NCBI GenBank assembly: GCA_037447655.1
Contig: JBBHKE010002680.1
Span: forward strand, 1 to 64,000
Source of the DNA: Zygnema cylindricum
Lineage: Eukaryota > Streptophyta > Zygnematophyceae > Zygnematales > Zygnemataceae
Length of the DNA stretch: 64,000 bases
Reading direction: 5' to 3'
The notes below the pieces were generated by a model. The model was not told the DNA's origin. It saw only the letters and a list, made by a program, of their open reading frames with translations, and ran no database searches. The translations under genes were made by a program, and so were the position numbers. Below are positions 20,527-52,483 of the stretch, one piece after another (position 1 is the stretch's first letter; the number at the start of each line of letters is the position of its first letter).

Positions 20527-20689
20527 TGAGTGATGACTACCAAGAAGAGAAACTGACTGGAAAGGGAAATCTTACTCTCAAAGAAGAGTATCGTATTCAA
20601 ACTAAAGCGCCTATCCCCCCTAATCCGAGGAGACAAGGGTTGCTTTTCAGTACTATGCCGATCCGCCGAAAGCGAAACAAATGCTACTC

Positions 20690-26076: not shown

Positions 26077-27340
26077 TAAAAGAAGCTAATCTAGATAGTG
26101 TCGACTCCAAGTTTATATAAACTCAAATGATTGAACCCTTGACAATCAAAACCCCATTACAGCTTCACCCCTGTGAAGTAAGACTATTGTGTGCTCAGTT
26201 CCACCACATATGCAAAGTTAGAAAATGAGATTTGGACACATTCACCCACTTTGACTTTCTCTTATATATGCAGCCACCCAGACTGGTAAAACTGATGACC
26301 GGCTACACTCATGTGTAGTGTAGACTCCCATGAGTGCGCAGCAACAAGAATCACTAAAATTGGTCAATTAAATTGGTAGTTATGGCTAGCCAAAGTTTAC
26401 CATGTATATAAGGTGCTCTCTGAAGAAGAGGCTAACCTACCAAAAATATTATAAATCCTAAAACCCCTCTCTTAGCCCCCTAGTACTAAGGTACGCACCA
26501 ATGAATAGATTGTAAAGTATATAAAGGTACAGGTGTCGGTGTACCTTTTGTACGGCTATCGTAAGACATGGCCAAAAACCAACACGTGTCTTATCCGGAC
26601 TCGTTTTTTTAATTCCGAAATTTGTGCTGCCAAATATTATCTCTCCACGTGGCTCCAAGTCATGCCACGTCTGAAAAACGATACCGTACAAGAAAGAACA
26701 AGTGTCAAAGTACTTTCTATAGGTACATTGTATGAAATTGCCATAGTGCAACATTTGTCACTTCCAGATTTGTTTTCTTCCGTTCCGGAAATTCCGTATG
26801 CCCGTATGATGTTGCCACGTGTCATTCGGAGTGGCGGCGTCTGCAAACTGCTAAATTGTTCTTTATGCGATGTCGGTGCTCACCACGGCCGTTCGATTTA
26901 TATCGTCGTTTAAAACAGACCGTCGAAATAAATGTCCCTACTATTTATTTTCCGGTACTAAAAGTATAACTCTTTCTATGCCCTATATACCGTAATCCAG
27001 TTAAATTGAAAACCCTACGTGTAACTATGTAAATAACTATCAAACCCTATATGTCCTAGCACTAATCCTAGACTAAATGGACAAAGCTAATGGTTGCGGG
27101 ATGTTTGACGGACGATAGGTACCAGGATCAATTCTAGGGTCCGTCAAATACATTTTTGGTAAACATACCTATTATCTACTCGTGTCTCTCTGGAGAGCTT
27201 AGGCACCCATGGCTTTATCCCCCTCTCTAGCATTGAGTGACTATAACAAGTGTGTGGGCTTGGAGAAGAGAGTCAAAGGCAAACTGCCTCTGCTCTTTTT
27301 CTATCCTAATAAAGACCTAAAAAATACTCAAATATCAACA
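26077..27340 (-). repeat. 3' LTR of deleted Copia derivative
   Basis: Direct repeat of 29236-30544. It ends on the plus strand in CTCAAATATCAACA, so the element's LTR begins TGTTGATATTTGAG. About 40 bp at the other end are missing. It includes the conserved hairpin at 27104-27148 (TTTGACGGAC pairs perfectly with GTCCGTCAAA) and the A-box-like CTAAATGGACAAAGC at 27072. Confidence 0.75.
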
Positions 27341-27463: not shown

Positions 27464-29260
27464 CTATTTAAAAAGGTCATTTAAATGAGCTGAAGTAAAC
27501 ATTCCATCTTGGTGATCATACATTTTATTTAACATCCCACTTTTCATAAATCCGAGCAAAGATATTATCCACCTCATCTCTTTTCCATCCACACACAAAC
27601 CGATTTCCCACTTGTAATCCAAATAGCCAGCCCCATCTCCAATCTGCAACATACACTTAAATGCTAACCCTTTTATAGGCACACCTCCATAAATAAAATC
27701 ACTTCCTTTAGTGATGTCAAACCCATTACCCCCAAAAACTGAACTTTGCTCACTCTCTCCCATCGATTTCTTTCCACTCACTTTCTAAATTTATTCCCAA
27801 TAAATATTTCTCCTCCTTAAACCTTTCATTAAATATTCCTCTTCTCCCTTATCCTTTAAGACCCCTTCTAGTTTCTTTTCTCCCCTTTCCTCGCAATCTG
27901 TTGAAGTCTCCATTTCCAACCAATTTTATGTTTCCAAATTGTCTATAAAATTATCCTCATTAATTTTATCTTTCCCGTTTTCACTTATGGATCCTAGATC
28001 TGACTTTCTCATTTCTATGTCATACACTCTACACTCCTCAACGTCCTCAAGTACCTCCTCTCTCTTTACTCCCCTTATACCTCCTAAAGCACATTGTTGC
28101 CTTCGTGGAATTTTTGTGTACTTTTCTCTCTTCTCCATTCTACCGATGTGAACAAGCTCCAAGATTTCTTCATCCTCTTTCTCCTCTTCCCCTTATACCT
28201 CCTTATTCACACTCCAACTTCTAAGTTCTTCCAAACAAGGACACTCCTCGATATAGTGACCCGGTTTTTCTACAAAAGAAGCAAACCCCATTTTTTCAAA
28301 GCTCCCCTTTCTTTTATTCTCCCTCTCTTTCCACCAAAGTTCTGATAAGGTTTACCTTTGTCTTTTTTCCTCTCATTATGCTTCCGCTCGTCACCGTCGT
28401 TCCTCACATCACTCTTCCGCCAGTCACCACCAGTTGTAAATGCAGTCTCTGTGTTACTTCCGCTACGAAGCTCCAAGGTGCCTTCCCTCACAAAAATTAT
28501 CCCCATGGTAATGCTCCAAGTCCATGAAAAGACATCCATTCCTTGCATACACTAAATGATTTCTTCGTACTCATGTGGGAGCTTTATGATTAGTTTATTA
28601 ATCTTTCTCTCCCCAGATTCCACATATCGCGCACTAGCAAGCTCAACTTATAACGCAGCAATATCATTGCAAATTTCTATCATGCTAACGCCTTTATAAA
28701 CATAGGCCTCTATTTCTTGTTTTACTAAATGCTGCCTCTATATAGTCTCCCTCTTATAAATCTAAATTAGTGTTTCCCAATTTTTCGAATACTTGATTAG
28801 ACTTAAAAGAGTGATAGCTATGGACTTAGACACATATCTATGTATGTTATGTTTTGCTATAGTGTTTTTATATTCCCAAATTTTCTATCATTTTCTTCTG
28901 TTTTTGGTTCAGTTATAATCCCCACAAGTGGAACCGTAGCCGAGAGCCTAGCTCCCCTCACCATAGGTGTCCCTTTATCCTTCTCCCCTATTTCCCCTTC
29001 CACGGTAATGATTTTCCCTTCACCTTCCATTGCATCTGAACTCTGGTTGGTTTTCTGGGCAGCCCCAGATGATTCTCCATAGTGAGTTCCTCCAGAGCCC
29101 AGGGGCGGACACCTCACTTGTTGCGAAACAATTCCCCATAAGTGCTTCTCGAAAAGTAATCCCTCCATCGTAAACTTCCAATAAGTGAAGTTTAATCCAT
29201 CAAACATAAACACCCTAGATGGTGGGCCCATAACTTGAAATTCTTTGGGCTCCATTGCCA
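27464..29260 (-). pseudogene. Internal remnants of deleted Copia (gag and RNase H only)
   Basis: Read on the minus strand: gag start at 29260-28857 (EFQVMGPPSRVFMFDGLNF, WGIVSQQV), gag end at 28548-28270 (SWTWSITMGIIFVREGTLE), a QQCALGGIR block at 28162-27926 matching the pre-protease linker, then a degenerate RNase H piece at 27781-27464 (DITKGSDFIYGG; RWIISLLGFMKSG). Protease, integrase and RT are absent. Flanked by LTRs of the same family, this is a non-autonomous, internally deleted derivative. Confidence 0.7.
29223..29234 (-). other. Primer-binding site matching tRNA-iMet anticodon arm
   Basis: The complement reads GTTATGGGCCCA, one base after the LTR terminus. It is complementary to the anticodon stem-loop (TGGGCCCATAAC, anticodon CAT) of eukaryotic initiator tRNA-Met, as in Drosophila copia, which is primed by a half tRNA. 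The same 12-mer occurs at 55172-55183; a diverged form is at 51422-51433. The site is also translated as VMGP of Gag. Confidence 0.7.
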
Positions 29261-30544
29261 CACAGAATTCGAAAATCAAAAGAAGCTAATCTAGATAGTG
29301 CCGACTCTATGTTTATTTAAACCCAAACGAATGACCCCTTGACAACGAAAACCCCATTATAGCTTGACTCCAGTGAAGTAAGACTTTTTTTGTGCTCAGT
29401 TCCACCACACAATGCAAAGTTAGAATATGAGATTTGGACACATTCACCCACTTTGAATTTCCTTTATAAATGCAATCACTCAAGCTAGCAAAAACTCTGA
29501 CCGACTGCTTTTTTGTGTAGCGTGGACTGCTTTGATTCCGTAGCAACAAGAATAACTGAAATTGGTCAACTGAATTGATAGTTATGGCTAGCCATAGTTT
29601 ACCATTTATACAAGGTGCTCTCTGGGAGAGGTAGCTACCTACCAGAAATAATTTAAGTCCTAAAACTCCTCTCTAAGCCCCCTAATACTACAGTACGAAC
29701 CAATGACAAGACTATAAAGTTCATAAAGGTGCAGGTGCCGGTGTTTCTTTTTTACGGCCATCGTACGACATGGCCAAAAACCAACAAGTGTCTTATCCGG
29801 ACTCTTTCTTTTAATTCTCGGAATTCGTGCTGCCAAATATTATCTCTCCACGTGGCTCTAGGTCATGCCACGTCTGAAAAATGGTACCTTATAAGAAAGT
29901 ACAAGTGTTGGATTACTTTGTGTAAGTACATTGTACGAAATCGCTATAGTGTTACATTTGTTACCTCCGGAATTGTTTTCTTCCGTTCATTAAATTCTGT
30001 AAGCTCGTATGATATTGCCACGTGTCATCCATAGTGGCGGCGCCTGCAAATTGCCAAATTGTCCTTTCTGCGATATTGGCGCTAACCACAGTCGTCCGAT
30101 TTACATCGTCATTTAAAACGGACCGTCGAAATAAATGTCCGTACTATTTATTTCGATGGTACTAAAAGTACAACTGTTTTTATGCCCTATATACCGTAAC
30201 CCAGTTAAATGGAAAACCCTACTTGTAACTATGTAAACATCTATCAAACCCTATATATCCTAGCACTAGTCCTAGACTAAATGGACAAAGCTAACGGCTG
30301 TTGGATGTTTGACGGACGGTAGCTACCAAGATCAATTCGTAGGTCCATCAAATACCTTTTTGGTAAACATACCTATTATCTACTCGTGTCTCTTTGGAGA
30401 GCTTAGGCAGCCATGGCTTTATCTCCCTCTCCAGCCTTGAGTGACTAGAACAAGTGTGGGGGCTTGGAGAAGGGAGTCAGAGGCAAACTGCCTCTGCTCT
30501 TTTTCTATTCTATTAAAGACCTAGAAAATACTCAAATATCAACA
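29236..30544 (-). repeat. 5' LTR of deleted Copia derivative
   Basis: Starts TG at 29236 and ends CAACA at 30544, 1309 bp, in direct repeat with 26077-27340. Just outside the inner end (29223-29234) is TGGGCCCATAAC, whose complement GTTATGGGCCCA is the primer-binding site. The hairpin at 30308-30352 has one mismatch in its 10-bp stem. The gag ATG (29263-29261, minus) lies inside this LTR. Confidence 0.75.
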
Positions 30545-31730
30545 ATTCTTTGTCAAGCTCGGATGCTTGGGTGGCACATTTTTCCTTACCCAGGATTTGC
30601 AGGCACCTTTCACCTTGTACGGACACCGGTGTACCGAGAATGGAGTGCACCAAACCAGACACGATTATTTGATTTCCAAAGTTGAGCTCAACGCATTGTA
30701 TTTTGCGCCTAACAAAGGACGGAGTGCAAAGTTAGAGAGCCTCAAAGATGGGAATGGTTGCACTATATTGGATGTAATCCACCCATGTAGAAGGGGGGTA
30801 CATTGTGGAACGTTGTATAGACTTTCGGGTTCTTATCTTCATTTGGTTGTTAGGAGTCAGTAAAAATTTGGTTGAGGTCAAACTCATTCTTGGTCTGTTA
30901 ATTACATCAGGTTGAAGTTGGACATTTAGCGTTGTTGTACAGCCTTTCTCTTATAATAGCGAAACAGATTTGACTTATAACCGTAGATTTAGCCATAGTT
31001 AGACTTACAACCTTTTACCCTGAGTGTAGTACAGCCTATTTTGTCTTATGACACATCGTTAACGATTGCTTGCCGCTGATTGGCCAATGGTATTGCTTGG
31101 ACTTTCAAGTTGGCAGTAGGAAATGCTTTGGTGTACAAGGCACTTTGGGCCGAAGGAGACAGGTTGCTTTTTCACTACTGTCTCCTAAGAAAACCCTAGA
31201 GAAATACAATCAATCTTTTTGTTGGAGAATTGTTGCATTGTGTCGTGAACTCTATTGCCATCTTTGTTTTGGATTGATTTTTGTGGAAATCATAGCTCAG
31301 GTGGGTGGTTGGCACTATCCTCTCTTTGGGCGGTTCGAACTTTCGTTATTTGAAACTTTGAAGAGTCTGGTCGGATCCGTACGACGGAACCGAGGGTTGA
31401 GGGAGAATCATATCAGTCTTCGAGGCAATTTGGAGAGGTTTCTTCTTCTAAGTTTGTCTGCGTTGCAGTCAGAGGTATGTGAGCTTGCTTCACCATTTTT
31501 ATTGATTTCTATATTTATTTCTATTTTCTGGGGCAAGGTAATCTGAAAGAGCCGATATTTATAGTTTCTATATTTTTGCGTGGAAGTTATTTGCGCACTG
31601 TTGTGATAATCCTCGGTTTCTGGCCGGAGTTTTGTGGGCCGGATCGGACGACTAGCATTCCTTTTTCATCCTTTGTATAGTATTCAGGAGTGTAGCATTT
31701 AGTGGGCTTCCGGCGGATAAGCCTTGTACT
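30545..31730 (+). repeat. 5' LTR of the DNMT-Gypsy (5' truncated)
   Basis: Matches 43758-44920 over about 1.16 kb (from TCAAGCTCGGATGCTTGGG to GTAGCATTTAGTGGG and GGATAAG). The U3 start seen at 42484 (TATGTGGTACTTTC) is missing because a Copia LTR ends at 30544. The conceptual frame 31070-31546 (ELYCHLCFGLIFVEI) is LTR sequence, also seen at 21.0 and 24.5 kb, not a gene. Confidence 0.75.
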
Positions 31731-31822
31731 GAAAAATCAACCTGTCTCTATATATTAAAGAGGTTAGGTGCTTAGGGCGGAGTACTTTCAAAAAGGGATC
31801 TAGCTCCTGTATCCAGTCATCT

Positions 31823-32452
31823 ATGGGAGGAGGAGAAGTTTATGATAAGGATCTTTCACGAGTCCGACTGGAAGAACAGGAAAGGCAAGAAGCAGTAGCA
31901 CAGGAGGAAGAGTCTCAAGGCCCAAGGTAGTAGTTCCCTTTGCCTCCACTCTCAACATAGAGATTGTCCTTTAGGGAATAATGCCTGAGGCTTTAACAGT
32001 TGAGACTCCTCCGAAACAGCCAGTGAAGCCACCCTCTCCTCTTCCTCCACCTGTCTTCTCTCCCGAGAATTTCCCAACTTTGTCCGAGGCTGCCAGATCT
32101 TGGGCCACGGAGAATGGGGAGAGATCGACCTTATCTCCTAAATAAAGTAGGAAGGGCTTGGCACATAAGGAAGCAGTCCCTGGTCACCCTTTTGAAATAG
32201 GACGCCATAGAAGATCGAAGGCTCCGATAGCAGAGATCTATATGGATCCCAAAATCCTGGCACACCCTAACCGGCCCGGTCAAAAAGAAAACTTAGCCCT
32301 TCACAATCTCCATGAATTGAAGGTTAAGAAGGAGTTGGTGCAGCTGGTAGTTAGGTCCGACCGAGCTAGAATCGTAAGCTTAGTGGGAGGCGTAGTGGAA
32401 ATATTGAGCAGTTCATCAAAAAGTAGGTCATCCACCTTTGTCCAGGAATAAC
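31823..32452 (+). pseudogene. Gypsy gag, N-terminal region
   Basis: ATG at 31823 (MGGGEVYDK) follows a leader of about 90 bp. The frame is charged (RLEEQERQEAVAQEEE) and stops at TAG TAG (31928). A Pro-rich stretch follows (PPSPLPPPVFSPENFPTLSE), then a block conserved with the fragment at 19.6-20.1 kb (HNLHELKVKKELVQLVVRSD). Several stops make it non-functional. Confidence 0.6.
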
Positions 32453-34402
32453 AGGGGATACCGTCAACTTCATACCGGCATTCTACCCAATCTCAGGACA
32501 CCAGAACCAGTGGACCGTCCTAGGGCAGGACAACCTCACGGACCCGGGCCGGGGAAGGGACCAGTAAGTGGGGGCTCCCAGAGCCCCAGAGGTTGCACCG
32601 GTTTGATCATAAAGACAACAAGGGCAGATTCGCTCTTCAACCGAAAGATGAGCCGTTCTTCCCTTCCTCCTCAGTCTCTCCTAGCTCCCTGTCTCCATGA
32701 GTGCCGATAGTCTAACCTTCCGAAAGGTTGTGACGTTCGAGACCTACAAACCCCAAAGTACCGGCTTGGAAATTGCGGATCTCTTAGGTGTGGTGAGCAG
32801 CACCCAGAAGCTAGTTGATTTCTTGCGGTCTCAGAGTCAGGCTATGGCGGGGGCCAGACTCGTCACCGTAGACTGGGAGGCTCTTGAAAAGGAATGGAAA
32901 AAGGCACTAGAACACGAATTGCTCCTCTTCCGGGAGGCTAAGTAGAGAGCAAAGGGGATCCTTAGTGGACAGGTCGATTCCTCTCGTAGAACCGGTTCCT
33001 CTGCGTGAGAACAACCCTTGGGACAAGCAATTCCTCCTGCAACACCGGCTATGAGCACTTACCAGAGACCTAGACCGGAACCTCCACTTAAGCAGGAAGG
33101 GGGGGAGGGACAACAAGGCCTTACAAATAGGGATGGGTGTAGATCTACTGGGAAACTTGGCAGCTGTTGCCACTGAGCATCCTACCTTGGTCTCGTTGGC
33201 GGGAGCTTCCACTGTGGAGGACGTGATGTAGCTACAACCTGACCACAGAGTACACATTTCTCTCGGACTATCCACTCCTCCGCCATCTCCACCTCACGCC
33301 TCCTCTCGTTTGCCCTCAATTTCTCCCGCTGCCGCAGTCCGTTCGTCCCCGGGACCGCCTGTTTTACCCTACAAGTACGACGTCCCTGCCTACTCACCTT
33401 CTCACAGACGATCCCCATCTTCCAACTCCAAAACTCCACCTGCCGAAACCTCCAGAAGGCTCCCCAGGAGACACAAACCTTTTCCTCAAAGCCCACGATC
33501 CTCTTTGTCCTCGCCACAGCCCATCCCACAAAGATCTTTGAATAGGCCTCGCCTCCATATCCCTTCAGTGGCTACGGTCCTAAGAGAAGAACAATATTTT
33601 GCTGGATATAAAGGAGCCATATATTTCACACCTCTTTTTTTTGCAAGACCTTCTTCAGTTGGGGGGGGGGTCATAGCAGATACACCTGGAGGAGAAAGAG
33701 GTTCGGGCGTAGAAGGGACAAAACCCGGAGCCATTTCACCGGTCTAGTTTGTCAGCCCCACTAGGATAGCCTCTCCACAGTTCACCCACCTTGCCGAGGA
33801 GGAAAACGAAATGGAGGACATAAGGATCTTTACGGGGGACAGCTCGGTGATCGCTTTTTTTGATTTTGAACTGTTGTGGAAATCCTTCACGCAGTCCGAA
33901 ATTAACATATACAGGGGAGGGGCCATCCAAGAGGATTTTGAGACCAGTCTTTTCCCTATGATGGTAAACTATCTAGCTTGAGGAGCATTGGCCGACTATA
34001 AGGAGCGTTAACCCTCTCTAATGGCTCCAAACATCAAAATCTCAGATATAGCTCTTGACGCCGAGGTCCTTGACGCCGCCGCCGACCTGGCCGCAGACCT
34101 GGCCGCCGCCACAGCAACCCCTGTTAGTGCTACCTTCAGTAGGGACATGAAACTGCAAGCCCAAGGTAGAGCCTATGTTAACCATCTGCTGACTGTACAA
34201 GCAGCTGAGGCAGCCACTCGGATGGTGGCCAACCCAACTCCTTATACCGCTCTTCAGAACTCTAGGAGGCTCCTTTACACAGAAAAGAACGAAACTGCCA
34301 TCAACGAATTCATTGAATTCCGATGTTTGAAGAATGAAACACCGCAAACTCTGTTCAACCGCCTCTCGAGCCTCTGTCAGAAAAACCAAGTTGTCTACCA
34401 TT
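32453..34402 (+). pseudogene. Gypsy gag, middle and capsid region
   Basis: 32697-32945 encodes an acidic, helix-prone block (IADLLGVVSSTQKLVDFLRS). 33121-34402 stays in one frame with a few stops and shows a Pro/Ser-rich linker, then DIRIFTGDSSVIAFFDFELL and an Ala-rich helical segment (AADLAADLAAATATPV). It ends near LCQKNQVVYH, after which the frame shifts. The assignment rests on position between leader and zinc knuckle and on capsid-like helical content. Confidence 0.5.
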
Positions 34403-35810
34403 GACACACCAGCCATGGCCACGAAATATTATATCGCTGTTTGGAATTCGTTCGGACCAACAGGACAGGCAGCCCTCGACAATTGGAGTGCCAGTCAGGC
34501 AATCGACGACAAGAATCCCACGGCGCAGGAAATCTTATTAGCAGCGAAGAAGTTGTATGATCATTTTGTAAACAGTGAGGCCAGAGAAAAGGCTGTTACC
34601 AACAAAGCACGAGCCAACTTCGCACGTTTTCCGGGGGAATCCTCTCTTTACAAAGAGGAACTACAGAACTTTAAGGTTTGCAGAAGCTTATGGGGAAACA
34701 CGAAGCCGAGACCAAATCCGAACCTGCAATGGGTGCGGATGAAAAAAATTACCTGTACAACTGCCTGAACTGCAACCAAAGTGCCACGTGAGGAAACGAT
34801 GCCCCATGAAGCTCAACCCGGAACTCGCTATCAAGCAAAAGGAGTTTGAGAAAGAACGAGCAGAAAGAACCCGAAAGCAGTAGGAACGCAAGCAGGGAGG
34901 AGGAGGGGACCGCACGCCGGTCAAAAAGAAAACTAATAAACCTACTCCTCGCTCCGAAACCTCCAAAATGTCTCAATCTCAATTAACACAAATCAGACTT
35001 CCTAAATTTAATGATGCACAGATCTCTAATGAGCTAATAAGGAAATACACTACTGAGGGGTAAAAATGTGAGGCCTGTGAGTTCATGGGCCATAAGGAGG
35101 GGCAATGTTTCCAGAAGTATGGTGTACCAAAAGAAATTATGCAATATGTTTTGTTCACAGGCTAGGGGGAAACAGCCGTTAATCTCGTGCCATTGCAACT
35201 TTTGTATCCCTTGGGAGGTCGATCTCCAGATGAACTAAGACCAAGTAACATGACGCCACAAAACATCATCCAGCAGCAAAGCAATCAATTGTCCGCCATG
35301 GCAGCAGAATAGGCCGCTCTCCGCTTCGGATAAAGGGCCCGTACTCCTCCACCTCTAACGCACGCTCAGAAACTACATAAATAAAAAAAAGAACTGCTAC
35401 GAAAGTTGGCAGAGCTGGAACAGCAGACCACGCTGGGTGGAGATGATGATGACCTTATGGGTTGGGATATGGAGACTTCAAAGGCTCATCATGCTAAAAC
35501 ATTTCTGCCCGGAGCTTGGAACGTTGAGGTCGAAGACAATCAGAGGCAACTCCGCTCTACCACGTCTTCACAGAGAAAGGACAACCAGCCGACGGAACCA
35601 AAGGACCACAACCGCAAAGCCACCGGTCATTTATCCTACACACCGCAAGCTGTCCTGCTGAATAGTGACATTGGTTTGGGCCTGAAACCGACCCATCTGC
35701 CTCCTCCGGTTCCAAAAAAACTTCCTCCCCGGTTTGAGGGTTACAAGAAACCACAGCGTGAAAAGAATGCTTCAGCAACGAAAATAGATCAGGAATGGTT
35801 TGACCGATAA
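34403..35810 (+). pseudogene. Gypsy capsid end and CCHC zinc knuckle
   Basis: 34403-34768 continues in a shifted frame (WNSFGPTGQAALDNW; AKKLYDHFVNSEAREK) and looks like capsid C-domain. 35067-35108 encodes CEACEFMGHKEGQC, a C-X2-C-X4-H-X4-C knuckle for RNA binding. 35406-35810 is a Pro/Lys-rich tail before protease. Stops near the knuckle (TAA before it, TAG after it) lie where glutamine or tryptophan codons differ by one transition. Confidence 0.65.
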
Positions 35811-35972
35811 CAAGCCTCAAAGACTAACTGCTGATCCACCATTAACACCTTCAACAGGGAAATTTGACGCAAAATAGGAAGAAACAGAGGAGGGGAACAG
35901 GAGAAATTAGAAGACAAGGACTCAACCATTTCATCGCCCAAAACTCACCCTTCTTCTTCGAAACCAGCAGTC

Positions 35973-36600
35973 ATGTTGGTACGACACTTGATGCCCTACG
36001 CCTTGACCCACGTCAAAACGCTAGCTTCCTCCCACAATTTGCCCGAAGAAATCATCATTCATGCACTAGGGGAAGAGATTCACACTAGGAGAGAAAGGGT
36101 CGTGTTAGAAGAACCACCTAAGACAGTCTTCATGTCTGCAGAACCGAAAACATCTATGTCGGATAGAGATTATAAGGCCCTGTTGGTGGCTCTTATTCTT
36201 AACAGGACAGGTAATTTTAAACTTAATAGTAACCGCGGGTATCAAGATGCAGTGGTGGATGCCGGAGCCCTCCTTAACCTCATAACCACCTCAGCATTAC
36301 AGAAAATGCCTGAGAAAATCATGCCAAAAATCAATCCCTGTGAAATATGCTAAGAACATTGGGAGTCAACCAGTATATGGCATCATTAAAGCAAAGGAAA
36401 ACGAATTCGCGGATGACACAGGCAAACACGTGCAAATTCAGCTCCCCTTCCTTGTGGTGGAAGGTAAGCAATTTGAAATTATGTTGGGCATGGCCACGTG
36501 GACAAGGTTGAACATGGAGTTGAGAATATGGAAGGAACAAGTTTCAGTTTCAGACCCAGAAAATCAAGAAGCACCAAGGTGGTGGTCCCATTGGTTTTAT
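35973..36600 (+). pseudogene. Gypsy aspartic protease region
   Basis: DAVVDAGALLNLITTSALQKM at about 36247-36309 is the catalytic segment, with DAG in place of the usual D-S/T-G. After a frame change, LPFLVVEGKQFEIMLGMATW (36440-36510) matches the second half, where ILG is typical. It precedes the methyltransferase. The altered triad and frameshift indicate inactivity. Confidence 0.6.
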
Positions 36601-36849
36601 TGAACCGGGGGAAAACGACTATTCCTGTGGCTAGATGTTATCCGGTGTACTCTGCATCCACCCCTTCAGAGTTGTTCAAATATTCCCCCGATATCGCGAA
36701 CTCTATATAGCAATTCCCCATTTCCAAGCGGTGGGAAAGGGAGTATCAAAGCAGATTGGTACAGTTGGCCACAGTTCGGCTGGGAGTGGACAGGAGCTTT
36801 CCCGCCATATCATCCTGGACAGTAAGGTTCATCCGGCACAAACTCCCAA

Positions 36850-37990
36850 CGGTTTCTAATCTAGAGAATGACTTGAATCAACAAGTGGTGTCATTGGATA
36901 TCCCGCCCTTAGGACTCCAGATTCTCTCGCTATTTTCCAGCATTAGTTCCGGCTTCGAAGCCGTCGTGATAGCTGGATACCAAGTAGAAACGTACTCGGC
37001 AGTCGAGATAGACCCGGACGCCCGTGCAGTCAAAGAGTACCAACTGCAACAGGTGCACGAACTTTACCCACAACAACTCCCGGTGTCCGCCATGTTTAAC
37101 TCTCACCGTACTCTTCCCCAGAATGTGGACAACATCACAGATTCACATTTGGAGACGCTTGGAATGGTAGACCTAGTGATCGGTGGATGGCCATGTAAGA
37201 GTTATTCCTTAGCGAGATAGGGCGGGGAACACCAGGATGTCCGAAGTATAACATTTTTTCAAATGACTCGACTGATAACAAGGTTACAGGAACGCTGGGA
37301 ACCACCAGTGGGGTACGTCATGGAAAATGTCAACCCCACATATGATAAATGGAAATAGGTAGTCAATAGCTAGAACCAAGTGACCAAGGTTTTGGGGACT
37401 CCCATAGTGTTTGATGCAGCTAAGGTCAGATCAAAAACCCACCGAGTGCAGGCTTATTGGACCAACTTGGCTCCCCTTCCCGTCCTCCAACAGCTGTTGA
37501 AGACACAGGTTCCGGATCCCAACATTACAGTTCAACAGATTCTCGGACCAGGCAAATGGCCACTCTTCTGACCACAGCCGACCGAACCCCCTTTTTCGGT
37601 TGCAATAAACTCGGGAATCCACGAAGGGCCCTACTGACCCTGGTATCATTCCCTAACAGCCATGCTTATCGGAAAGGCTCACCAGAATGATATTTGATAG
37701 TACAACCGCTACTTAGACGCCACCAAGTATTGAGGAACGAGAACAGGCAATGGGATTTCAACCGGCAACCACAGCAGCACTAGGGGTATCGGCCTTAAAG
37801 AGGTGCAGTTTAATCAGGCAAAGTATGGATTTGAATGCAATTTCATGGGTGCTACAACATTCTTTGGCATTTTCCACCCTCCAATCTCCAAAGTCACGCG
37901 CAACATACCTTGAAGCTCCACATATGTTGGCCCTACAAGCAACTCTACAGCTTAAAGGGGGGAGAAAGTCAAGAAGCTTAAGATTCAACA
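36850..37990 (+). pseudogene. C5 cytosine DNA methyltransferase domain in Gypsy pol
   Basis: Motif I is LQILSLFSSISSGFEAV (SAM binding, from 36915), with the acidic strand SAVEIDPDARAV after it. Motif IV is DLVIGGWPCKSYS with the catalytic Cys codon at 37194-37196. Motif VI is VGYVMENVNP (37307-37336). A motif IX-like RSKTHRVQAYWTN lies at about 37430-37470. The order fits DNMT3/DRM-like enzymes rather than DNMT1. The domain sits between protease and RT. It is interrupted in frame by TAG at 37218, 37356 and 37371 and by further stops after 37571, so this copy is dead though its key residues remain. Family role: methyl transfer from SAM to C5 of cytosine; proposed to self-methylate element DNA. 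Confidence 0.85.
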
Positions 37991-38145
37991 AATTACATTC
38001 AGAAAAAACACAGAACCCAAGAGCTTCCTCAGTGGGGGGGAGCCAAGGCTCATAACAGAATAGCTTATTGGAATTTGTTTGCAGCACTGTGTTAGAGGCG
38101 GAGCAAAGGACAAACTAGCAGGTAGAGCTCGAATTTAACATCTCC

Positions 38146-38786
38146 TTGTGGGGCCGGCCAACAGAAGCCCTTGTAGCAGTGGAACCGGGAAAAATGGACT
38201 GGACTCTAGGAGAGCAGCTAGATCCAGAGCAGAAAGCCAAGCTCTCCAAACTGTTAGAGGAGAACAAGCAGGTTTTCTCTTGGTCTGATACAGATGTAGG
38301 TATCTATAAAGGGACCCCTTTTAGGATAGACTTGACGGACAAGACGACAACTGTTTGGTAGAAACAATATCCTCTCAATTTTATGGAAAAAGAGTTTATC
38401 ACGGCAAAGGTACAGACTATGGTGGACGCAGGGCTGGTGCACGAAAGTATAAGGTAGCATGGATTTTCCTCTCCAACAGTCCTCCGCAAAAAGACTCCTC
38501 CAAGAAAACTATAGATTTCCGGATGTGTGGGGTATATAGGATGCTCAAAGGGGCGATAGTCTCTGAACGTTATCCGATGCCCACTTTAGAAGAGATCTTT
38601 GACTCTCTTGCTGGGGCCACCATTTACTCCATTTTGGATATGAATAATGGATTCCACTTGAATGCAATGGAGCCAAAGCATCGAGAGAGAACAACTTTTG
38701 GGCCATATCCAGGTTTTATGAATGGCTTTATATGCCATTCCGCCTCAAAAATGCACCCGCCAAATTCCAACGGGCCATGGATAAGT
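38146..38786 (+). pseudogene. Gypsy reverse transcriptase, first part
   Basis: LEENKQVFSWSDTDVGIYKG and KQYPLNFMEKEFI open the RT. SERYPMPTLEEIF and SILDMNNGFH hold the first catalytic Asp region. MPFRLKNAPAKFQRAMDKS follows in another frame. It is cut at 38786 by a Copia LTR. A TAG at about 38358 and frame changes break it. Confidence 0.8.
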
Positions 38787-39929
38787 CTATTGATATTTGT
38801 GTATTTTCTAGGTCTGTAAATAGGATAGAAAAAGGCAGAGGCAGTCTGCCTCTAACTCCCCTCTCCAAGCCCCCACACTTGTTGTAGTCACTGAAGGCTG
38901 GATAGGGAGCTAGAGCCATGGCTGCCTAAGCTCTCTAGAGAAGACAGGGGATAAATAAGGTAAACTTACCAAAAGGTACTTGACGGGCCCAAGAATTGAT
39001 CGTGGTACCTACAGTCCGTCAAGTTGCCCTCAGTCATTAGCCTTATCTGTTTAGTCTAAGCAAGTATTGAGATATATGGGGTTTCATAATTATTTAATTA
39101 GTTACACGTAGACTAGTTCATTTAATAGGAAATAATTACGTAGTGCATGGATACAGTTTTAGAGAGTACGGAGTACGGTTTCCATATTTTTATAAAACGG
39201 ATATCGCGCACTTGTTTCGACCGCGAAACAAATACCGCGCGTCGAATTTCAGCGACTATGATTATAGCCGGTTTTGATCGGACGGCCGCGATAGGCGCCG
39301 CGATCACGTAAGAGGTACTTTAAGCGGTTTACGATCATTACCGCGTTAGATGACACGTGGCGTGATAACATTGGATTATGGGAACTTTGGAGATTACGGG
39401 AACAAATCTTGAATTTACACGTGTCGGCATTTTGGCCATGTTGTACAATGGCCATACATAAAGTACACCGGCACCTTTACTTTTATATACGATACAATAA
39501 TTTAATTGGTGTTGTACTTCAGTAGATAGAGTTTTAGAGGGGGAATAGGACTTAGAAAATTTTGGGTAGGTAGCTGCCTCTCTCGAGAGCACCTTGTATA
39601 AATGGCAAACTTTGGCCAACCATATCTATCAATTTACTTGACCATTTTCAGTGATTCTTTTTGCTCCGGACTCAGGGGAGTCCACCCTAAACAAGGGTGT
39701 AGTCGGTCAGAGGTTTTGTCTGCCAGGGTGGCTGCATTTATAAGGGAAAGTCAAAATGGGTCAATGTGTCCAAATCTCATATTCTAACTTTGCATTCTGT
39801 GGTGGAACTTAGCACACAGAAAGTGTTGTTTACAAAGGTGAATCTATATTTGGGTTCTGACTCTTTAGGGGTCAGTCATTTGGGTTTATATCAAGTTAGG
39901 AGTCGGCACTATCTAGATTAGCTTCTTTG
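38787..39929 (+). mobile_element. Copia LTR inserted in Gypsy RT
   Basis: Begins TATTGATATTTGTGTATTTTCTAGG, close to the Copia LTR start (TGTTGATATTTGAG), and ends TATCTAGATTAGCTTC, as in the 26-30 kb element read in reverse. The last about 40 bp of a full LTR are missing. Hairpin at 38979-39023 (CTTGACGG with CCGTCAAG). RT sequence resumes after it. Confidence 0.75.
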
Positions 39930-39934
39930 GATCT

Positions 39935-40890
39935 GCCTACTCTGAGGGCCAATGAAGATCTCAAAGTTTCAGAGGCCCTACGGGGAATCGATTACGCCCA
40001 TTGTAACATTGATGTTGTCATCATTTTCTCCAAATTATTCAAGGAACATTTCGAACACATTCAGATAGTACTCCGGGCTCTCTAGGCATCGGCTTGAATT
40101 GCCACCCGAGAAAGGGTATTTTTGGGGTGCACAAAATTATTTATCTGGGTCATGAAGTGACCCGAGGGAAAGTATGCCCCCACATGGTCAAGGTGGCTGC
40201 CCTTGACGCAATCCCACCACCTCAGGACATTTCTGCTCTTCGCACATTCTTGGGCTTAGCTAATTATTATCGGAGGTTCAATCCCGACTTCAACAGCCAT
40301 GCCCAACCACTTAATCAATTATTGCGGAAGGACGAGGAGTGGCAGTGGGCCGAGGAACAGCATATAGCTTTCCAATTTATGAAAGACTCCCACAAGCAAC
40401 ATCTTGTGGTTCAACTACCCGATCACCAGCGACCTTTCCTCGTTTACATTGATTAGAGCAGGTTCGGAATAGGAGTAGTTTTGGCTCAATTGGATGATGT
40501 AGGGGCAGAGAATGTTGTGGCTTATGCGAGCCGCAGTAACATTAGAGCCAAAGGAAATTACAGCATTTATCAGAGAGTTATTGCGGCAGTCTTCGCAATC
40601 CAGCATTTCAGACCGTACCTCTATGGAGTACATTTTTTTCTAATCACGGATCACCAGCCCCTTAAATGGATCATGGAGAATAGTAAGTTGACCGGCAAGC
40701 TAGCCCGATGGGTGCTTATCTTGGAAAAATATGACTTCAGCATTATCCACAGAGCCGGGGAGATCCATGGAAATGCAGTTGGGCTGAGCAAGAATTTAGA
40801 CCCTTCCACCCAAGATTCAAAATGTGCTTCACACGATGAGGATCGTGAGCTCAACCTGCGGATTATCTATGCTTCCTCCGCCTTTATTTG
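39935..40890 (+). pseudogene. Gypsy RT end and RNase H
   Basis: HCNIDVVIIFSKLFKEH at about 39998 is the active-site strand, with the usual DD altered. 40094-40456 is the thumb/connection (YLGHEVTRGKV, LRTFLGLANYYRRFNPDF). RNase H begins FLVYID at 40436, has an in-frame TAG at 40454 where many Gypsy elements have Trp, then SRFGIGVVLAQ, YSIYQRVIAAVFAIQHFRPYLYG, ITDHQPLKWI and IIHRAGEIHGNAVGLSK. Confidence 0.85.
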
Positions 40891-40989
40891 GCTGCCTTGA
40901 GTTCGAGGGGAAGTGTCGACGTTTTATGCAGATTTAGAGGGGCATGCTCCAATTGGAGCCACCCGAAAGGATATTTAGAACGACGTTGA

Positions 40990-42252
40990 GTCACTCTAGT
41001 CCTTTCAGATGCGGGCGCCTCTCCCTCACTTAAAGGGAGTATCTTTGTCCCGTGTTCATACTAGGATGACCGCATGCGAATGAGATTGAGGCATCCTCCT
41101 CAAAAAATGGGCAGATGGGACGAGAAAAGTGGTTCCTCCTCTGGCGGACCGAGAAACTCTCATAGTCCGCCTTCACCAGTAATGTGGACAGTTCGAGCAA
41201 AAAAGGACAACCTCCTTGGTCACTGGGTCTTATTGGTGACACGGGCTGCCGGCCCAAGTTAACCGTGTTGTGCAGACTTGTCCCTCGTGTGACTCGGTGA
41301 AAGCTGCATTCGACAAGAAGGGGGGGACTTAATTACACTCTCTTCCTATCAGGGGAATGTTTTACCGGTGGTCTCTAAACCTGCAAAGACCACCCCCAAA
41401 CAACCGGAAGGAGAACCGGTTTTTTGTGGTCATGATTGAGCATTTTTCCAAATATATCGAATTGGTGGTTCTCCCGTGGAAGGAGTCCAAGGCCATTGTG
41501 GACGCATTCTTACAAGAGTGTTATCATAATTTGGAGCTCCTGCTAAAGTTGTGACAGATCAAGGGTCTGAGTTTGCGGGAGAATTTTCCAATCTTCTGGA
41601 AAAGTGCCTCATTAACCACCAGCTGACCAGCCCAGACACCCCTCAAGCCGACTACTTGGCTGAAAGGTGCGTCCTGACAGTGAAGCGGTCACTACGAAAA
41701 TATGCATTTGAGGAAGACTTAGGGGAGTGGGAGAAGCAGATGCCTTGGATCGCCATGGGTTACTGATTCAGTAGGTAAGCATCCTTTCATTCCCATAGCC
41801 CTTACTTCATTATTTTCGGTCGGCATCCCATCTTACCTGGAGCTACATCGGCTCAGGCAATTGTCTTTCCAAAAATGGACAATCGGGGAACAGTGGAGAA
41901 ATTGATTGTCGATAGGGCTAAGGTATTCCATCGGGAAATACCACTAGTTATGGGGAATTTGCAAGCCGCACAGCACCGGGATCAGCTCTAGTATTCAAAG
42001 CGCAGAAGTGGCAATTATGTTCCCCGGTAGCGGAGATTCATGCCAGGGAATTTTTGTGTACCGCATGTAACAAAAGAAGGACACTCTGACATTTTCGCCA
42101 GAAGGGTAATAATGAAAGTGGTGGAGGTTTCCAACAAAGGGGTGCTGACTTTGGAGGGGAAAGATGGTCGAAGAATCAAAGAGAATCAGATTAATGTGGC
42201 CCCTTGTCATCTTCAGGGGTTGGAGGATGAACCTACTTTCCACCTCACCTAA
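40990..42252 (+). pseudogene. Gypsy integrase and C-terminal region
   Basis: The zinc-binding part retains CPSCDSVKAAF (about 41280). The core reads RWSLNLQRP (catalytic Asp replaced by Asn, a G-to-A change), FFVVMIEHFSKYIELV, TDQGSEFAGEF (second Asp kept) and PQADYLAERCVLTVKRSL (Glu kept). After 41770 a basic tail (ARRVIMKVVEVSNKGVLTLE, 42098-42160) precedes the polypurine tract. Stops near 41553 and 41764 break it. Confidence 0.85.
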
Positions 42253-42461
42253 TTTGTAGATTCACCTGCCTGTGTCGCTGCCTGTTCACTGTCTGCCCCA
42301 CACTATCTCATGTCCGTTTGTGAGCGCTGCCACCAAGGGTGGCATGACCCTTGTCTTCCACTCCCTTGTGTTACTCACTCTAGGTCTTTAGATCCGTGGG
42401 GTTTGTGGGGATTGCGAATTCGGCGGCTGACATTTCTTATCCTCTCGGTCATTTGGGACTT

Positions 42462-42483
42462 AGAGGAAGGGGGGATTAGGGGG
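42462..42483 (+). other. Polypurine tract of the DNMT-Gypsy
   Basis: AGAGGAAGGGGGGATTAGGGGG lies directly before the LTR start TATGTGGTAC, as expected for plus-strand priming. Confidence 0.75.
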
Positions 42484-44930
42484 TATGTGGTACTTTCTTT
42501 CTCATTTGTCCCAGCATGCATACTGTAGAAATTAATGGTTTTAAGTATTTTCTAGGTCTGAATAGAAAGAAAGAAGCCGAGGCAGTCTACCTCTAACTCT
42601 CTCTCTAACTCAAACTTGTCGCAGTCACTGAGAAATCGGAGAGGAAGCTTGAGCCATGGCTACCTAGGCTATCCTGAGGTTTACGGGAAATTTATATTAG
42701 TTCGGGTTTATTTATTTAAAGGGTATGTGCCGGCGGCAGGAATTGATCCTTGTACCTACCGGCCGCCAAACAAGAAGTAGCCGGTAGCCTTAGCCGTTAA
42801 GTCTAAGAGTCATGATACGTAGTATATAGTTTGATAGTTATTTAAATATTTTCACGTACGATTATTCATTTAACTATAATAGATTACGAGATACATAGAT
42901 ATGGTAATATATAAAGTACGGATTACGGTACGCACTATAAATCAATACCGCGCATTTGTTTCGTAAATGAAACAAATACCGCGCATGTATTTATTACGGC
43001 TACGATTAAATTAGATTCTCATCGGACGGCCGCAATTAGCGCCGAGATCGCGGAGGAAGTTTTCGGCAGTTTGTGGCCATCGCCACATCGGATGACGCGT
43101 GGCGAAATTTCGTTGGATCGTGGAATCCCCGGAGATTATGGCATCGAATCCGGATATGACATGTGTCGACATTTAGGCCTTGACGTACAATATCCGTACC
43201 TAAAGTACACGGGCAGCTGTACTTTTGCGTACGGAACTCAATTCTGATTGGTTCCGTACATCAGTAGATAGAGTCTGTGAGAGAGATAGGACTTAGAAAA
43301 ATTAGGAGATAGGACCCTCTCTCCCAGAGAGCTTCTGTACAAAAGGTTCTCTTTTGACCCTCCATAACTTATTGCTCAGGGGAGCAAATTCAAAGATTCT
43401 TTTTGCTATCGACTCAGGGGAGTCTTGTGTTCACATGGGTGAGGTTGGTCAGAGTTTTTGTCTGTCAGGGTGGCAGTTTTTTTTGCAGAAACACAAAGGG
43501 GTCAGGGTTATCCTAGAGGCTTCTTGGAAGCTGTCCACTCTGAGGACTTATGGAGGTCTCAGAGTTTCACATACCTTACACCGTACCGGTCTATAACAAG
43601 GCCCTTCCTCATACACCCGTGGGAAGGGAAAGAATCGGGAAGGGTATTACACAACCTCCGGGGAAGCATTGGCATTTAGGGTGGGATGCAGGTCTATCTA
43701 ACATATTCTCCTCGGATAGCCTACCCAACCTCATGATTCCGAGGCACGCTCGGCAACTGTCAAGCTCGGATGCTTGGGTGGCATCTTTTTCCTTACCTTG
43801 GATTTCCAAGCACCTTTCACCGTGACGGACATCGGTGTACGGGGAATGGAGTGCACAAAACCGGACACGATTATTTGATTTCCAAAGATGAGCTCAACGC
43901 ACTTTATTCCGCGCTTAACAAAGGCGGAGTGCAAAGTTAGAGAGCCTCAAAGATGGGAATTGTAACACTATATCGGATATAATCCACCCTTGTAGAGGGG
44001 GGGTACATTGTGGAACGTTGTATCGACTTTCGGGTTCCTATCTTCATTTGGATGTTAGGAGTCAGTAAGAATTTGGTTGAGGTCAAACTCATTCTTGGTC
44101 GTTAATTACATCAGGTCAAAGTTGGACGTTTAGCATCGTTGTCCAGACTTTATCTTATAATAGCGAAACGGATTTGACATATTGACGCGGATTTAGCCGC
44201 AGTTAGATGTACAACCTTTTGCCCTGAGTGTAGTACAACCTCTTTTGTCTTATGACATATCGACAACGATTGCTTGTCGCTGATTGGCCAATTGTATTGC
44301 TTGGACTTTCGAGTTGGCAATAGGAAAAACTTTGGTGTATAAGGCACTTCGGGCCGAAGGAGACAGGTTGCTTTTTCAGTACTGTCTCCTAGGAAAACCC
44401 TAAGAGTTATACAATCAATCTTTATGTTGGAGAACTGTTGCATTGTGTCGTTGACTCTATTGCCATCTTTGTTTTGGATTGTCTTTTGTGGAAATCGTAG
44501 CTCAGGTGGGTGATTGGCAGTATCCTCTTTTTGGGCGGTTCAGACTTTCGCTATTCGAAACTTAGAAGAGTCTAGTCGGATCCGTACGGCGAAACTGAGG
44601 GTTGAGGGAGAATCATATCAGTCTTTGGGGCAATTTGGAGAGGTTTCTTCTTCTAAGTTTGTATGCGTTGCACTTAAGGGCATGTGAGCTTGCCTCACCA
44701 TTTTCGTTGATTTCTATATTTATTTCTATTTTCTGGGGCAAGGTAATCTGAAAGAGCCGATATTTATTGTTTCAATTTTCTTCGTGAGAGTTATTTGCGC
44801 ACTGTTGTGATAATCCTCGGTTTCTGGTCGGATTTTTGTGGGCCGGATCGGACGACTAGCATTCCCTTTTCATCCTTTGAGTAGTATTGAGCAGTGTAGC
44901 ATTTAGTGGGACTATGACGGATAAGGAAAA
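42484..44930 (+). repeat. 3' LTR of the DNMT-Gypsy, split by a solo Copia LTR
   Basis: The LTR starts at 42484-42486 and resumes at 43570 after the insertion; 43758-44920 repeats the 5' LTR. Without the insertion it is about 1.4 kb. It is followed by a second purine run (GGATAAGGAAAAAAGGG) and another LTR start at 44936. Confidence 0.7.
42524..43569 (+). mobile_element. Solo Copia LTR with TSD CATAC
   Basis: Starts TGTAGAAATTAATGG and ends GAGTTTCA, 1046 bp, flanked by CATAC (42519-42523 and 43570-43574). The uninterrupted target is visible in the related LTR at 44936 (CACATGCATACCTTATACC). Its hairpin region (42730-42768) has GGCGGC against GCCGCC, unlike the TTGACGG stems of its relatives. 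Confidence 0.9.
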
Positions 44931-44935
44931 AAGGG

Positions 44936-45154
44936 TATGTGGTACTTTCTTTTTCATTTGTTCCCACATGCATACCTTATACCGTATCGGTCTATAACAA
45001 GGCCCTTCCTCATACACCCGTGGGAAGGGAAGGAAGCGGGGATGGTATTAACCCACCTCTGGGGAAGCATTGGCATTTAGGGTGGGATGCACGTCCATCT
45101 AACACATTCTTCTTGAACAGCTTGCCCAAACTCATGGTTTTGGTCACGCTCGAC
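44936..45154 (+). repeat. Second Gypsy LTR start, truncated
   Basis: TATGTGGTACTTTCTTTTTC through CATGGTTTTGGTCACGCTCG repeats the first about 220 bp of the LTR at 42484. It is cut at about 45154 where Copia integrase sequence starts. It lies directly after an LTR end plus purine run, with no internal region. Confidence 0.65.
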
Positions 45155-46038
45155 ATCTTTGAAGTACTTGGGTGTTTCAAACTTTGTTTGCACGGAGTAG
45201 ACTCTAGAATATCTAGACCAATCATTAGTAATTATCAGCATATACCTCTTCCCCCCAACTGAAGGTACTCTCGCTGGTCCCCAGATATCTGTGTGGACCA
45301 GATCTAGTACTTTATCACCTTTATATGTGGCACTTTTGGGAAAAGGGAGTCTGTGAGCCTTACCTTGGGCACAGCCACTACAATCATCCATCATTTCATT
45401 ATCCCCAAACTAAATGCTTCTACTACACCCAGCTTCTTCATTTCCATCAGCCTATAAAAATGCACATGCCCCAACCGCTTATGCAAGATCATCAAGCTCG
45501 AGACACCACCATAGTAAGCACTCTTCCTTTCATTACTCAGGTTAAGCCTAAGTATTCCTTGGCCGCCCTTATCTGCAATAAAGTAGACTTCATCTCCGTA
45601 CTTAGCTGAAATGACTCCCTTTTTAGTGAAGGTATCAAAATCCTTGTTTTCTAATACTGAAGTAGACATATGGTTTTTATTTAGCTGAGGAATGTAAAGC
45701 ACATCTGAGAAGGTGAGTATAGAAGTCTTACCCTCCAATAAAACTTTCAGATCTACCGAGCCCACTAGATCTGTGGTAACTACTCTTCCATCCCCATACT
45801 CTATTTCTACAGTCTGGATCTTTCTTAGCTTAGTGAAGAGATGCCTATCACGACACTTATGCATGGATGCACCTGAATCAATAATCCATCCTGTCACGCC
45901 ACTTATGCATGGATGTATTTGAATCGATGAAGGTGAGAATGGAAGTCTTACCCTTCACTAAAACTTTTCAGATCTACCAAGCCCACTAGATCTGTGGTAA
46001 AACCTCTTCCATCCCCATCTTAGCTTAGTGAAGAGATG
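45155..46038 (-). pseudogene. Older Copia: protease and integrase N-terminus
   Basis: On the minus strand: WIIDSGASMHKC (protease DSG, 45888), YGDGRVVTTDLVGSVDLKV, YIPQLNKNHMS, KRLGHVHFYRLMEMKKLGVV (pre-integrase), then CSGCAQGKAHRLPF and DLVHTDIWGPARVPS. About 80-85% like the element inserted next to it. 45926-46038 repeats part of this region with a deletion, so a local duplication preceded the insertion at 46044. It continues beyond the insertion at 52484. Confidence 0.8.
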
Positions 46039-46043
46039 CCTAT

Positions 46044-47090
46044 TGCAATTCTGTGTCCTCCATTGGACTACAAAATACAGGAAGCCTCTAGATAGTATTT
46101 AACTAACCCACTTTAAGCCACGACCACTTCTGCCCAAGAAGGCAAACTGACAATTTGACTGCACCCCTGTGCAGCCTGGACTCCCCTGAGTCCGTAGCAA
46201 AAAGAATCACTGATAACGGCCAACCAGCCGATAAGTTATAGGGTGGCAAAGATGCCAATGTATACAAACTCTCATAGAGAGAGGACTATCTACCTAAATT
46301 TTCCTAAGTCCTAGTTTTTCCTAATTCCCTCTCACAGCTCCTATCTACTGCCTGTACGAACCAATCACAAAACTGTATAGTACTAGAAAGTACTACTGCC
46401 GATGTACTTTCTGTACGGCCTCTGTACGACAAGGCCATTAAGTGGACGCGTGTCCACTTTTCACTCGTCCGTACGTTCCTCGGAATTCCCGCGACCGAAT
46501 GATGTCTTCCCACGTGGCGCCGGATCATGCCACGTCACTAAATGCCAAAGTGACCACTCCGGGATTTCGGCGATGATGTGCGCCGTTGGATTTTATGCGA
46601 AACGCAATCTTGGCCGTAATAAATACTTGCGCGACATTTGTTCCGATGTAGAAATAAAATGCGTGGTATCCGTTTTGATTTAGCGTCGTACGACGTACTT
46701 TATATAACTGAATCTATGTAGGCCGTAAACAGTTCTAGTTAAATGAATTTTATCCACTTGAACTAAATATATATCTATCACATACCATAGCACTTAGCAT
46801 TGGTCCTAGTCTATGAGGATAAAGCTGACCGCTACCGGTCAACTTGACGAACCACAGGTACCGCGATCAATTCTCTGGTCCGTCAAGTATATTTTTAGTA
46901 ACCTACTAAAAATAGCTGTCTGTTGAACTAAGGCAGCCATGGATCAACCTCTCTCTCTTTCCTTCAGTGACTACAACAAGTATGGGGGCTAAAAAGCGGA
47001 GGTGGAGGCAGGCTGTCCGTCCTTTTCTTTTCCTTTTATAAAAACACATTTAAACCTAGAAAATACTCTAGAAATCTATAGATTTCAACA
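46044..47090 (-). repeat. 3' LTR of the full-length Copia
   Basis: 1047 bp, TGCAATTCTGTGTCC to GATTTCAACA on the plus strand. Contains the hairpin at 46843-46887 and A-box-like CTATGAGGATAAAGCTGACC at 46811. Confidence 0.95.
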
Positions 47091-47103
47091 CTCCCCTTAT
47101 TTT

Positions 47104-52478: not shown

Positions 52479-52483
52479 CCTAT

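Follow-up and report, generated by a model that had tools for sequence, protein, structure and literature searches.

According to the available text of de Mendoza et al. (2018; PMC5890265), KnitGypsy-Dnmt3 of Klebsormidium nitens is a Gypsy element with DIRS-like repeats whose Pol frame encodes a Dnmt3-type DNA methyltransferase (DNMT), and SymbioDIRS-Dnmt3 of Symbiodinium likewise carries Dnmt3 in Pol, with repeats in the order A-coding-B-A-B and in two domain orders. The present analysis concerns a stretch of 64,000 nucleotides of Zygnema cylindricum (contig JBBHKE010002680.1, positions 1 to 64,000; hereafter the window), in which the sequence leaves almost no doubt that a copy of a Ty3/Gypsy element carries a DNMT3-type cytosine methyltransferase in its Pol. 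Among known kinds of element, KnitGypsy-Dnmt3 comes closest to it. The copy, which is dead, belongs to an old Ty3/Gypsy family with the order gag, protease (PR), DNMT, reverse transcriptase (RT), RNase H (RH) and integrase (IN), followed by a relic of a PHD finger. The element and its coding parts are:

30551-45155, plus strand: whole Ty3/Gypsy element
34012-35153, plus strand: gag region (limits by eye), with a zinc knuckle CEACEFMGHKEGQC at 35067-35108, read from the sequence
36153-36528, plus strand: aspartic protease remnant, frameshifted, DTG changed to DAG, similar to residues 595-723 of the related protein P0011
36891-37902, plus strand: DNMT3-type C5-cytosine methyltransferase (family profile in three frames; DNMT3A best in the PDB)
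38484-40159, plus strand: RT, split by an LTR-like insertion (RT profile at 38484-38800 and 39972-40159)
38790-39971, no strand assigned: insertion in RT resembling a Copia-type long terminal repeat (LTR), about 1.18 kb, exact right end not fixed
40346-40738, plus strand: RH (Pfam RT_RNaseH E 3.3e-26; profile E 2.1e-43)
41132-41652, plus strand: DDE integrase, with a frame change near 41510 (profile E 2.2e-37 and 1.9e-16)
41950-42222, plus strand: integrase C-terminal region, presumably GPY/F-like (profile E 4.7e-27)
42271-42430, plus strand: PHD finger relic VCERCHQGWHDPCL (profile match ends at 42369; last C..C by eye in another frame)

Four peptides of the window, LSLFSSISSGFEA, GGWPCKSYS, MENVNP and HRVQAYWTN, had been read as C5-methyltransferase motifs in an earlier note on this DNA, and all were found in one frame (0-based frame 2) within 36920-37470. 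The last peptide, there called IX-like, is present and corresponds to motif VIII, and the domain is longer than had been noted, its later part lying in two other frames up to about 37902. A profile of the relatives described below, with the window excluded, matched the six-frame translation of the window at 36891-37601 (frame 2, E 1.4e-68), 37556-37684 (frame 1, E 4e-10) and 37684-37902 (frame 0, E 7e-19), and nowhere else in it at E up to 1. The reading frame 36891-37560 is interrupted by three in-frame stops (37218, 37356 and 37371) and followed by two frameshifts; the DNMT is full-length but broken, and its catalytic Cys has indeed been kept in a dead copy, together with the ENV and HR residues in canonical order. 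The uninterrupted N-terminal piece alone matched Pfam DNA_methylase at E 0.0021, under Pfam's cut-off, and the read-through with X at the stops, the check proposed in the note, matched it significantly (E 9.7e-8, above the cut-off). In a PDB sequence search with the read-through, DNMT3A chains were best (E 7.9e-10) and DNMT3B chains next (1.5e-7), with 4onj (which we take to be a DRM) at 0.002, DRM2 at 0.028 and HhaI at 0.07. The DNMT3 family is the best match over DRM, DNMT2 and bacterial enzymes. DRM methyltransferases have a rearranged motif order, with VI-X before I-V; the window domain runs canonically through motifs I, II, IV, VI and VIII to the later region, and membership of the DRM group was rejected on this ground.

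The DNMT sits where the earlier note had placed it, between protease and RT of a single plus-strand Ty3/Gypsy element, with the protease remnant upstream and RT starting at 38484. The RT-RH-IN order with a DDE integrase, a Ty3/Gypsy feature, is found in the window element and without interruption in the relative P0010, to which the window integrase is 55% and the RNase H stretch 64% identical. Within gag, 35031-35153 and P0011 share 44% identity over 41 aa (E 1e-7), and two protease pieces resemble the same protein at 42% over 60 and 31 aa (E 6e-15), both E values being for searches against this stretch alone. These two calls draw mainly on similarity to that single relative, with weaker matches to others; on the window, the family profile of the gag knuckle gave no match under E 0.05 and the family PR profile did not reach E 0.05. 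The profiles behind the domain map were built from the proteins that they map and show order, not independent detection. Pieces of the insertion in RT share 77-81% identity with the Copia LTRs found at 26079-27338 and 29236-30542.

A fragment of a host DNMT3 gene that landed by chance in one Gypsy copy, by nested insertion or as a chimera, would be meaningless, and the dead state of the copy and the nested insertions common in the window would fit such an event; this explanation can nevertheless practically be dismissed. By blastp at E up to 1e-3, 82 relatives of the DNMT were collected. The first search gave seven proteins, one of them named Sphagnum compactum, among which P0007 joins DNMT to RT; a search for long proteins added P0009 and P0010, the latter a single frame of 1494 aa with DNMT, RT, RH and IN by Pfam; and a search from P0010 gave 74 proteins, including P0010 itself, 13 from Marchantia polymorpha and KFL_009030040 (P0063) of K. 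nitens. Pfam was run on P0001-P0007, P0009, P0010, P0013, P0034, P0040, P0063 and P0068. DNMT and RT share one frame in P0009, P0010, P0042, P0045, P0049, P0078 and others, and the chance fragment, which the earlier note had named as the finding that would overturn its reading, is refuted because such fused polyproteins are uninterrupted; the agreement of DNMT with RT-RH distances (below) also speaks against it. The uninterrupted polyproteins include metagenomic ones, and the nearest relatives of the window are metagenomic too. The window DNMT is 37-38% identical to P0009 and P0010, only 32% (over 252 aa) to the K. nitens protein, whose RH-IN part is 36-43% identical, and 32% to the best-scoring Marchantia protein (34% over 186 aa for the fragment P0079). 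As to a viral origin, IMG/VR scans with the queries labelled A1, P0009 and P0068 found no relative, and the query labelled A4 gave 22 loci with short matches of 27-45% identity, taken for the common C5-methyltransferase core; none of the four scans found a viral carrier. The best viral-structure match (E 2.1e-14) was weaker than the top PDB DNMT3 rows (2.3e-17).

Two domain orders occur among the relatives. The tree and residue counts used the 75 of 82 relatives with at least 250 aa of DNMT, the co-phylogeny 37 elements with usable DNMT, RT and RH, and the identity comparison 27 with all four domains; the trees are quick trees without bootstrap, the DNMT tree having one DNMT3A fragment as outgroup. 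By local profiles, 38 of the 75 proteins with near-full DNMT, plus the window, fall into class I (PR-DNMT-RT-RH-IN or parts of it) and 35 into class II (RT-RH-DNMT-IN or parts, in full RT-RH-DNMT-IN-PHD), two fragments being undecided. Assignment to class I was based on RT after DNMT in 14 of the 38 and on protease before DNMT in the remaining 24; assignment to class II on RT or RH before DNMT in 29 of the 35 and on DNMT-IN only in the other six. In the DNMT tree, the class II proteins group in a single clade (SH-aLRT 99) that also takes in one undecided fragment, and in the RT-RH tree a branch with support 100 separates the two classes, the K. nitens protein being on the class I side. Because both the window and DNMT3A lie on long branches, the DNMT tree places the window only uncertainly. 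Patristic distances of DNMT and RT-RH are correlated across the 37 elements (Mantel r 0.85) as well as within class I (0.88, nine elements) and class II (0.82, 28 elements), with none of 2000 permutations as high in any case; the DNMT therefore evolved together with the element. The two classes may go back either to one capture and one relocation or to two captures of close enzymes. As a side observation, 26 PR-DNMT proteins, 10 of them from Marchantia, are without RT in the same protein and have 0-133 residues after the DNMT, and P0051 has RH and IN pieces; such proteins could mean that the DNMT is produced alongside gag and protease instead of RT, or could be a product of the gene models.

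Many members also end in a PHD finger. The PHD cysteine pattern was seen in 31 of 83 sequences, precomputed Pfam PF00628 in 29 of the 74 proteins from the P0010 search, and a finger by local profile in 32 of the 37 proteins that reach the integrase C-terminal region. By class, it is present in 30 of 31 class II proteins, the remaining one being cut off, and in two of six in class I, the class of the window, namely P0078 and a divergent finger in P0010 (the K. nitens record is cut off). Pfam names PHD in both class II members on which it was run, P0034 and P0068, and the finger of P0060 is nearest to chromatin readers. On the six frames of the window, the profile of the relatives' fingers had a sole match at E up to 1 (E 4.3e-5). 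The PHD relic is missing from the earlier note, as are the split repeats and the later DNMT part. P0068 has a long extra region C-terminal of its PHD finger, without a Pfam match at E 0.01.

The ends of the window element comprise:

30545-30550, no strand assigned: residual 6 bp of target DNA, ATTCTT, the last 4 bp of which, TCTT, are the target-site duplication
30551-31721, plus strand: left terminal repeat A1, left end TGTCAAGC; terminus from the target duplication and the empty-site comparison
31726-31748, plus strand: primer-binding site, 23 nt, four bases after A1, reverse-complementary to A-repeat positions 603-625
42462-42483, plus strand: polypurine tract AGAGGAAGGGGGGATTAGGGGG, its last Gs common to B1; read from the sequence
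42481-43757, plus strand: terminal repeat B1 (42481-42523 and 43570-43757, split by a solo LTR)
43758-44931, plus strand: terminal repeat A2, with a TATA-like box at 44338 and the primer sequence at 44360-44382
44933-45155, plus strand: terminal repeat B2, right end GCTCGACA, followed by the flank TCTT at 45156-45159

These are split direct repeats in the order A-coding-B-A-B, with A only at the left end and B-A-B at the right. Repeat A measures 1.17 kb (A1 and A2 89.8% identical over 1172 columns) and repeat B 0.24 kb (B1 and B2 84% identical); the solo LTR in B1 (42524-43569) has a 5-bp duplication, CATAC. The element thus lacks the identical full LTRs at both ends of Ty3/Gypsy elements and has the split repeats of DIRS elements, but with a DDE integrase instead of a tyrosine recombinase and with a target duplication, which DIRS elements lack. 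It lies within a Copia integrase gene: from 45156 rightwards the sequence continues a Copia whose paralogue begins to match precisely at 49586, and ATTCTT left of A1 recurs in intact Copia paralogues (49584-49589 and near 55664). The left flank amounts to only six bases, since the left piece of this Copia (82% identity to 49211-49548) does not resume until left of 26078; some 35 bp are lost and further Copia sequence lies in between. The termini TGTCAAGC and GCTCGACA are near inverted repeats with TG...CA, and with the empty-site match and the TCTT duplication A...B therefore appear to be the true integrated ends, bearing a 4-bp duplication of the kind expected from a DDE integrase.

Such ends might instead be an accident of this locus (loss of B from the 5' LTR and gain of another B on the 3' side) and differ from the form in which the family replicates. 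The window holds a single nearly full copy, B1 is interrupted and the left target flank is 6 bp long, yet an accident is improbable given the TG...CA ends, the 4-bp duplication, the empty site and two further fragments. Two diverged remnants, of this element or of a related one, lie on the minus strand at 19900-21700 (repeat A, primer site and gag leader) and 23836-24577 (A-B end), neither of which was matched by the DNMT profile. In the first (20.4-21.7 kb) the A end passes directly into the primer site; in the other (24.1-23.8 kb) A is followed by GGG and then by B with the terminus CTCGACA (23836), as in B2. DIRS-like repeats are also stated for K. nitens in the available text of PMC5890265. 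GGG precedes B in three places: the polypurine tract, the A2|B2 junction and the 24-kb fragment. The CCTT between A1 and the primer site, which would be expected at a simple end-joined junction, is absent from both A|B junctions, and a route through a circle is therefore kept only as a speculative reading.

The primer site pairs at 22 of 23 positions with A2 and at 21 of 23 with A1; the match scores of 20 and 17 compare with a maximum of 12 in 300 shuffles and of 10 in 174 other 45-mers of the element. The complement in A2 begins 22 nt downstream of the TATA-like box, which corresponds to TACAAG in A1, and transcription is inferred to start in A1 near 31155. From this arrangement, which resembles the self-priming of Tf1, we infer that the element's own 5' RNA end would prime its reverse transcription. 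A similar self-complementary primer pair was seen by eye in the second diverged copy (20687-20630, minus strand). Searches of the whole window for tRNA genes and Rfam families found nothing. Self-priming is predicted for 12% of plant LTR elements in the accessible text of PMC6317226.

Taken as a whole, the family is probably best explained by a working Pol whose DNMT methylates the cDNA or the insertion site, with the PHD finger as a tether where it is present. In working members, Pol would yield a methyltransferase along with RT and integrase; the element RNA would start in A and its 5' end prime its own reverse transcription; the DNMT would methylate the new cDNA or the insertion site; and the PHD finger, where present, would anchor the integration complex to chromatin of a chosen state, as has been proposed for the chromodomains of chromoviruses. 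The new copy might benefit by resembling host-methylated DNA, or by staying quiet enough for the host to tolerate it. What the sequences themselves show is an active site that has been conserved and a long history that DNMT and RT have in common. Among the parts of the explanation, action of the DNMT on DNA is likely, whereas a benefit through self-methylation is put forward tentatively, and so is targeting by PHD, for which the estimate was lowered from an even chance because only two of six members of the window's class have the finger.

Several observations weigh against this explanation. In the window, Ser replaces the Gly of motif I found in 71 of 75 relatives' rows, and Gln takes the place of the second Arg behind HR, which is Arg in 72 of the 75 rows. 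Median identity in the 27 four-domain proteins is lower for DNMT (0.37) than for IN (0.42), RT (0.45) and RH (0.52). The PHD match of the window is weak (E 4e-5), and among the sequences of the profile behind it is the divergent finger of P0010 itself, for which Pfam gave no match at E 0.01; three of the six class I members end in a different tail. The CpG transition rate in A1/A2 (0.183) is close to that in a Copia LTR pair (0.187), and the excess of CpG over other transitions, 3.8-fold in A1/A2 and 2.4-fold in the Copia pair, does not differ significantly (Fisher p 0.14); CpG transitions number just one in a second Copia pair and three in B1/B2. The observed/expected CpG ratio of the element, 0.40-0.85 by segment, exceeds that of two Copia stretches (0.36 and 0.39). 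The KnitGypsy DNMT showed no activity in yeast, a result that its authors called inconclusive in the available text of PMC5890265.

The yeast result, stated there also for the SymbioLINE DNMT, could also be accommodated if the domain were an accessory of Pol that binds RNA or DNA without modifying DNA, for instance as a chaperone of cDNA or a methyltransferase acting on RNA. The sequence of motif IV, AGW[P/E]C, is unusual, and Glu stands for the Pro of the PC motif beside the catalytic Cys in 17 of 75 rows (P0042, P0045, P0049 and 14 more), an unusual active-site variant. An accessory role is nonetheless unlikely, since the catalytic residues are retained and sequence and fold are nearer to DNMT3 than to DNMT2. 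In the K. nitens protein P0063, motif VI reads EH and not EN, so that this copy may be inactive. Alternatively, the DNMT might act as a brake, the element methylating its own promoter, remaining silent in most cells and being tolerated by the host; slowed retrotransposition is among the options discussed in the accessible part of PMC5890265, but the A repeats of the window copy are not CpG-poor (observed/expected 0.74 in A1 and 0.85 in A2-B2), and a brake seems rather doubtful. Beyond the methylating, tethered Pol favoured here, a wider reading would be an old algal and bryophyte Gypsy lineage whose Pol contains a DNMT3-type methylation writer, joined in many members by a PHD histone reader; such an element would place and mark its own chromatin, and would insert through its DDE integrase from a circular two-repeat cDNA opened within the repeat, at B|A. 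It is doubtful as a whole; the opening at B|A, if true, would explain DIRS-like ends with a normal target duplication.

As for described systems, the published charophyte element and the window element are kin, as had been proposed: KnitGypsy-Dnmt3 shares with the window a Dnmt3-type DNMT in the Gypsy Pol frame and DIRS-type repeats in the order A-coding-B-A-B (PMC5890265, available text). The K. nitens protein P0063 belongs to the same family and class I, with the order PR-DNMT-RT-RH-IN; its record ends 7 aa after the integrase C-terminal region, whereas the window has a PHD relic. SymbioDIRS-Dnmt3 has a tyrosine recombinase in place of the window element's DDE integrase. Proteins of Marchantia polymorpha, for example Mp_4g09160 (P0013, 'hypothetical protein'), share PR-DNMT and class I with the window, but 10 of the 13 have no RT in the same protein. 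Chromoviruses have a chromatin-reading module after the integrase and ordinary LTRs. Among them, Tf1/Sushi and Tcn1 elements are, like the window element, Gypsy elements with self-priming (PMC6317226, available text), but carry a chromodomain instead of PHD and no DNMT; neither PHD nor methyltransferase occurs in the accessible main text of that paper.

For DNMTs in retrotransposons, no title other than PMC5890265 was found among the open-licence literature matches listed; in the parts available, PMC12344493 cites the case and calls the LTR class Copia, and PMC6453930 does not mention it. Relative to the available text of PMC5890265, the main text of which lacks the term PHD, the bryophyte members, the second domain order, the PHD finger, the TG...CA ends, the 4-bp duplication and the self-primer site are new. 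With Marchantia and Sphagnum members, the published charophyte case becomes a more widespread family, and a tractable plant becomes available for testing why a transposon would carry the silencing enzyme of its host. The presence of a PHD finger in many members suggests a reader-writer pair in one polyprotein, and the combination of DIRS-like ends, DDE integrase and target duplication bears on the origin of DIRS-type repeats from Gypsy elements.

Elsewhere in the window, an exon of an MFS_1_like transporter on the plus strand at 11247-11876 (Pfam E 6.5e-22) probably belongs to a host gene. A young Copia on the minus strand, with LTRs at 46044-47091 and 51434-52479 that are 98.8% identical and with long open gag and integrase frames, lies beside the old elements.
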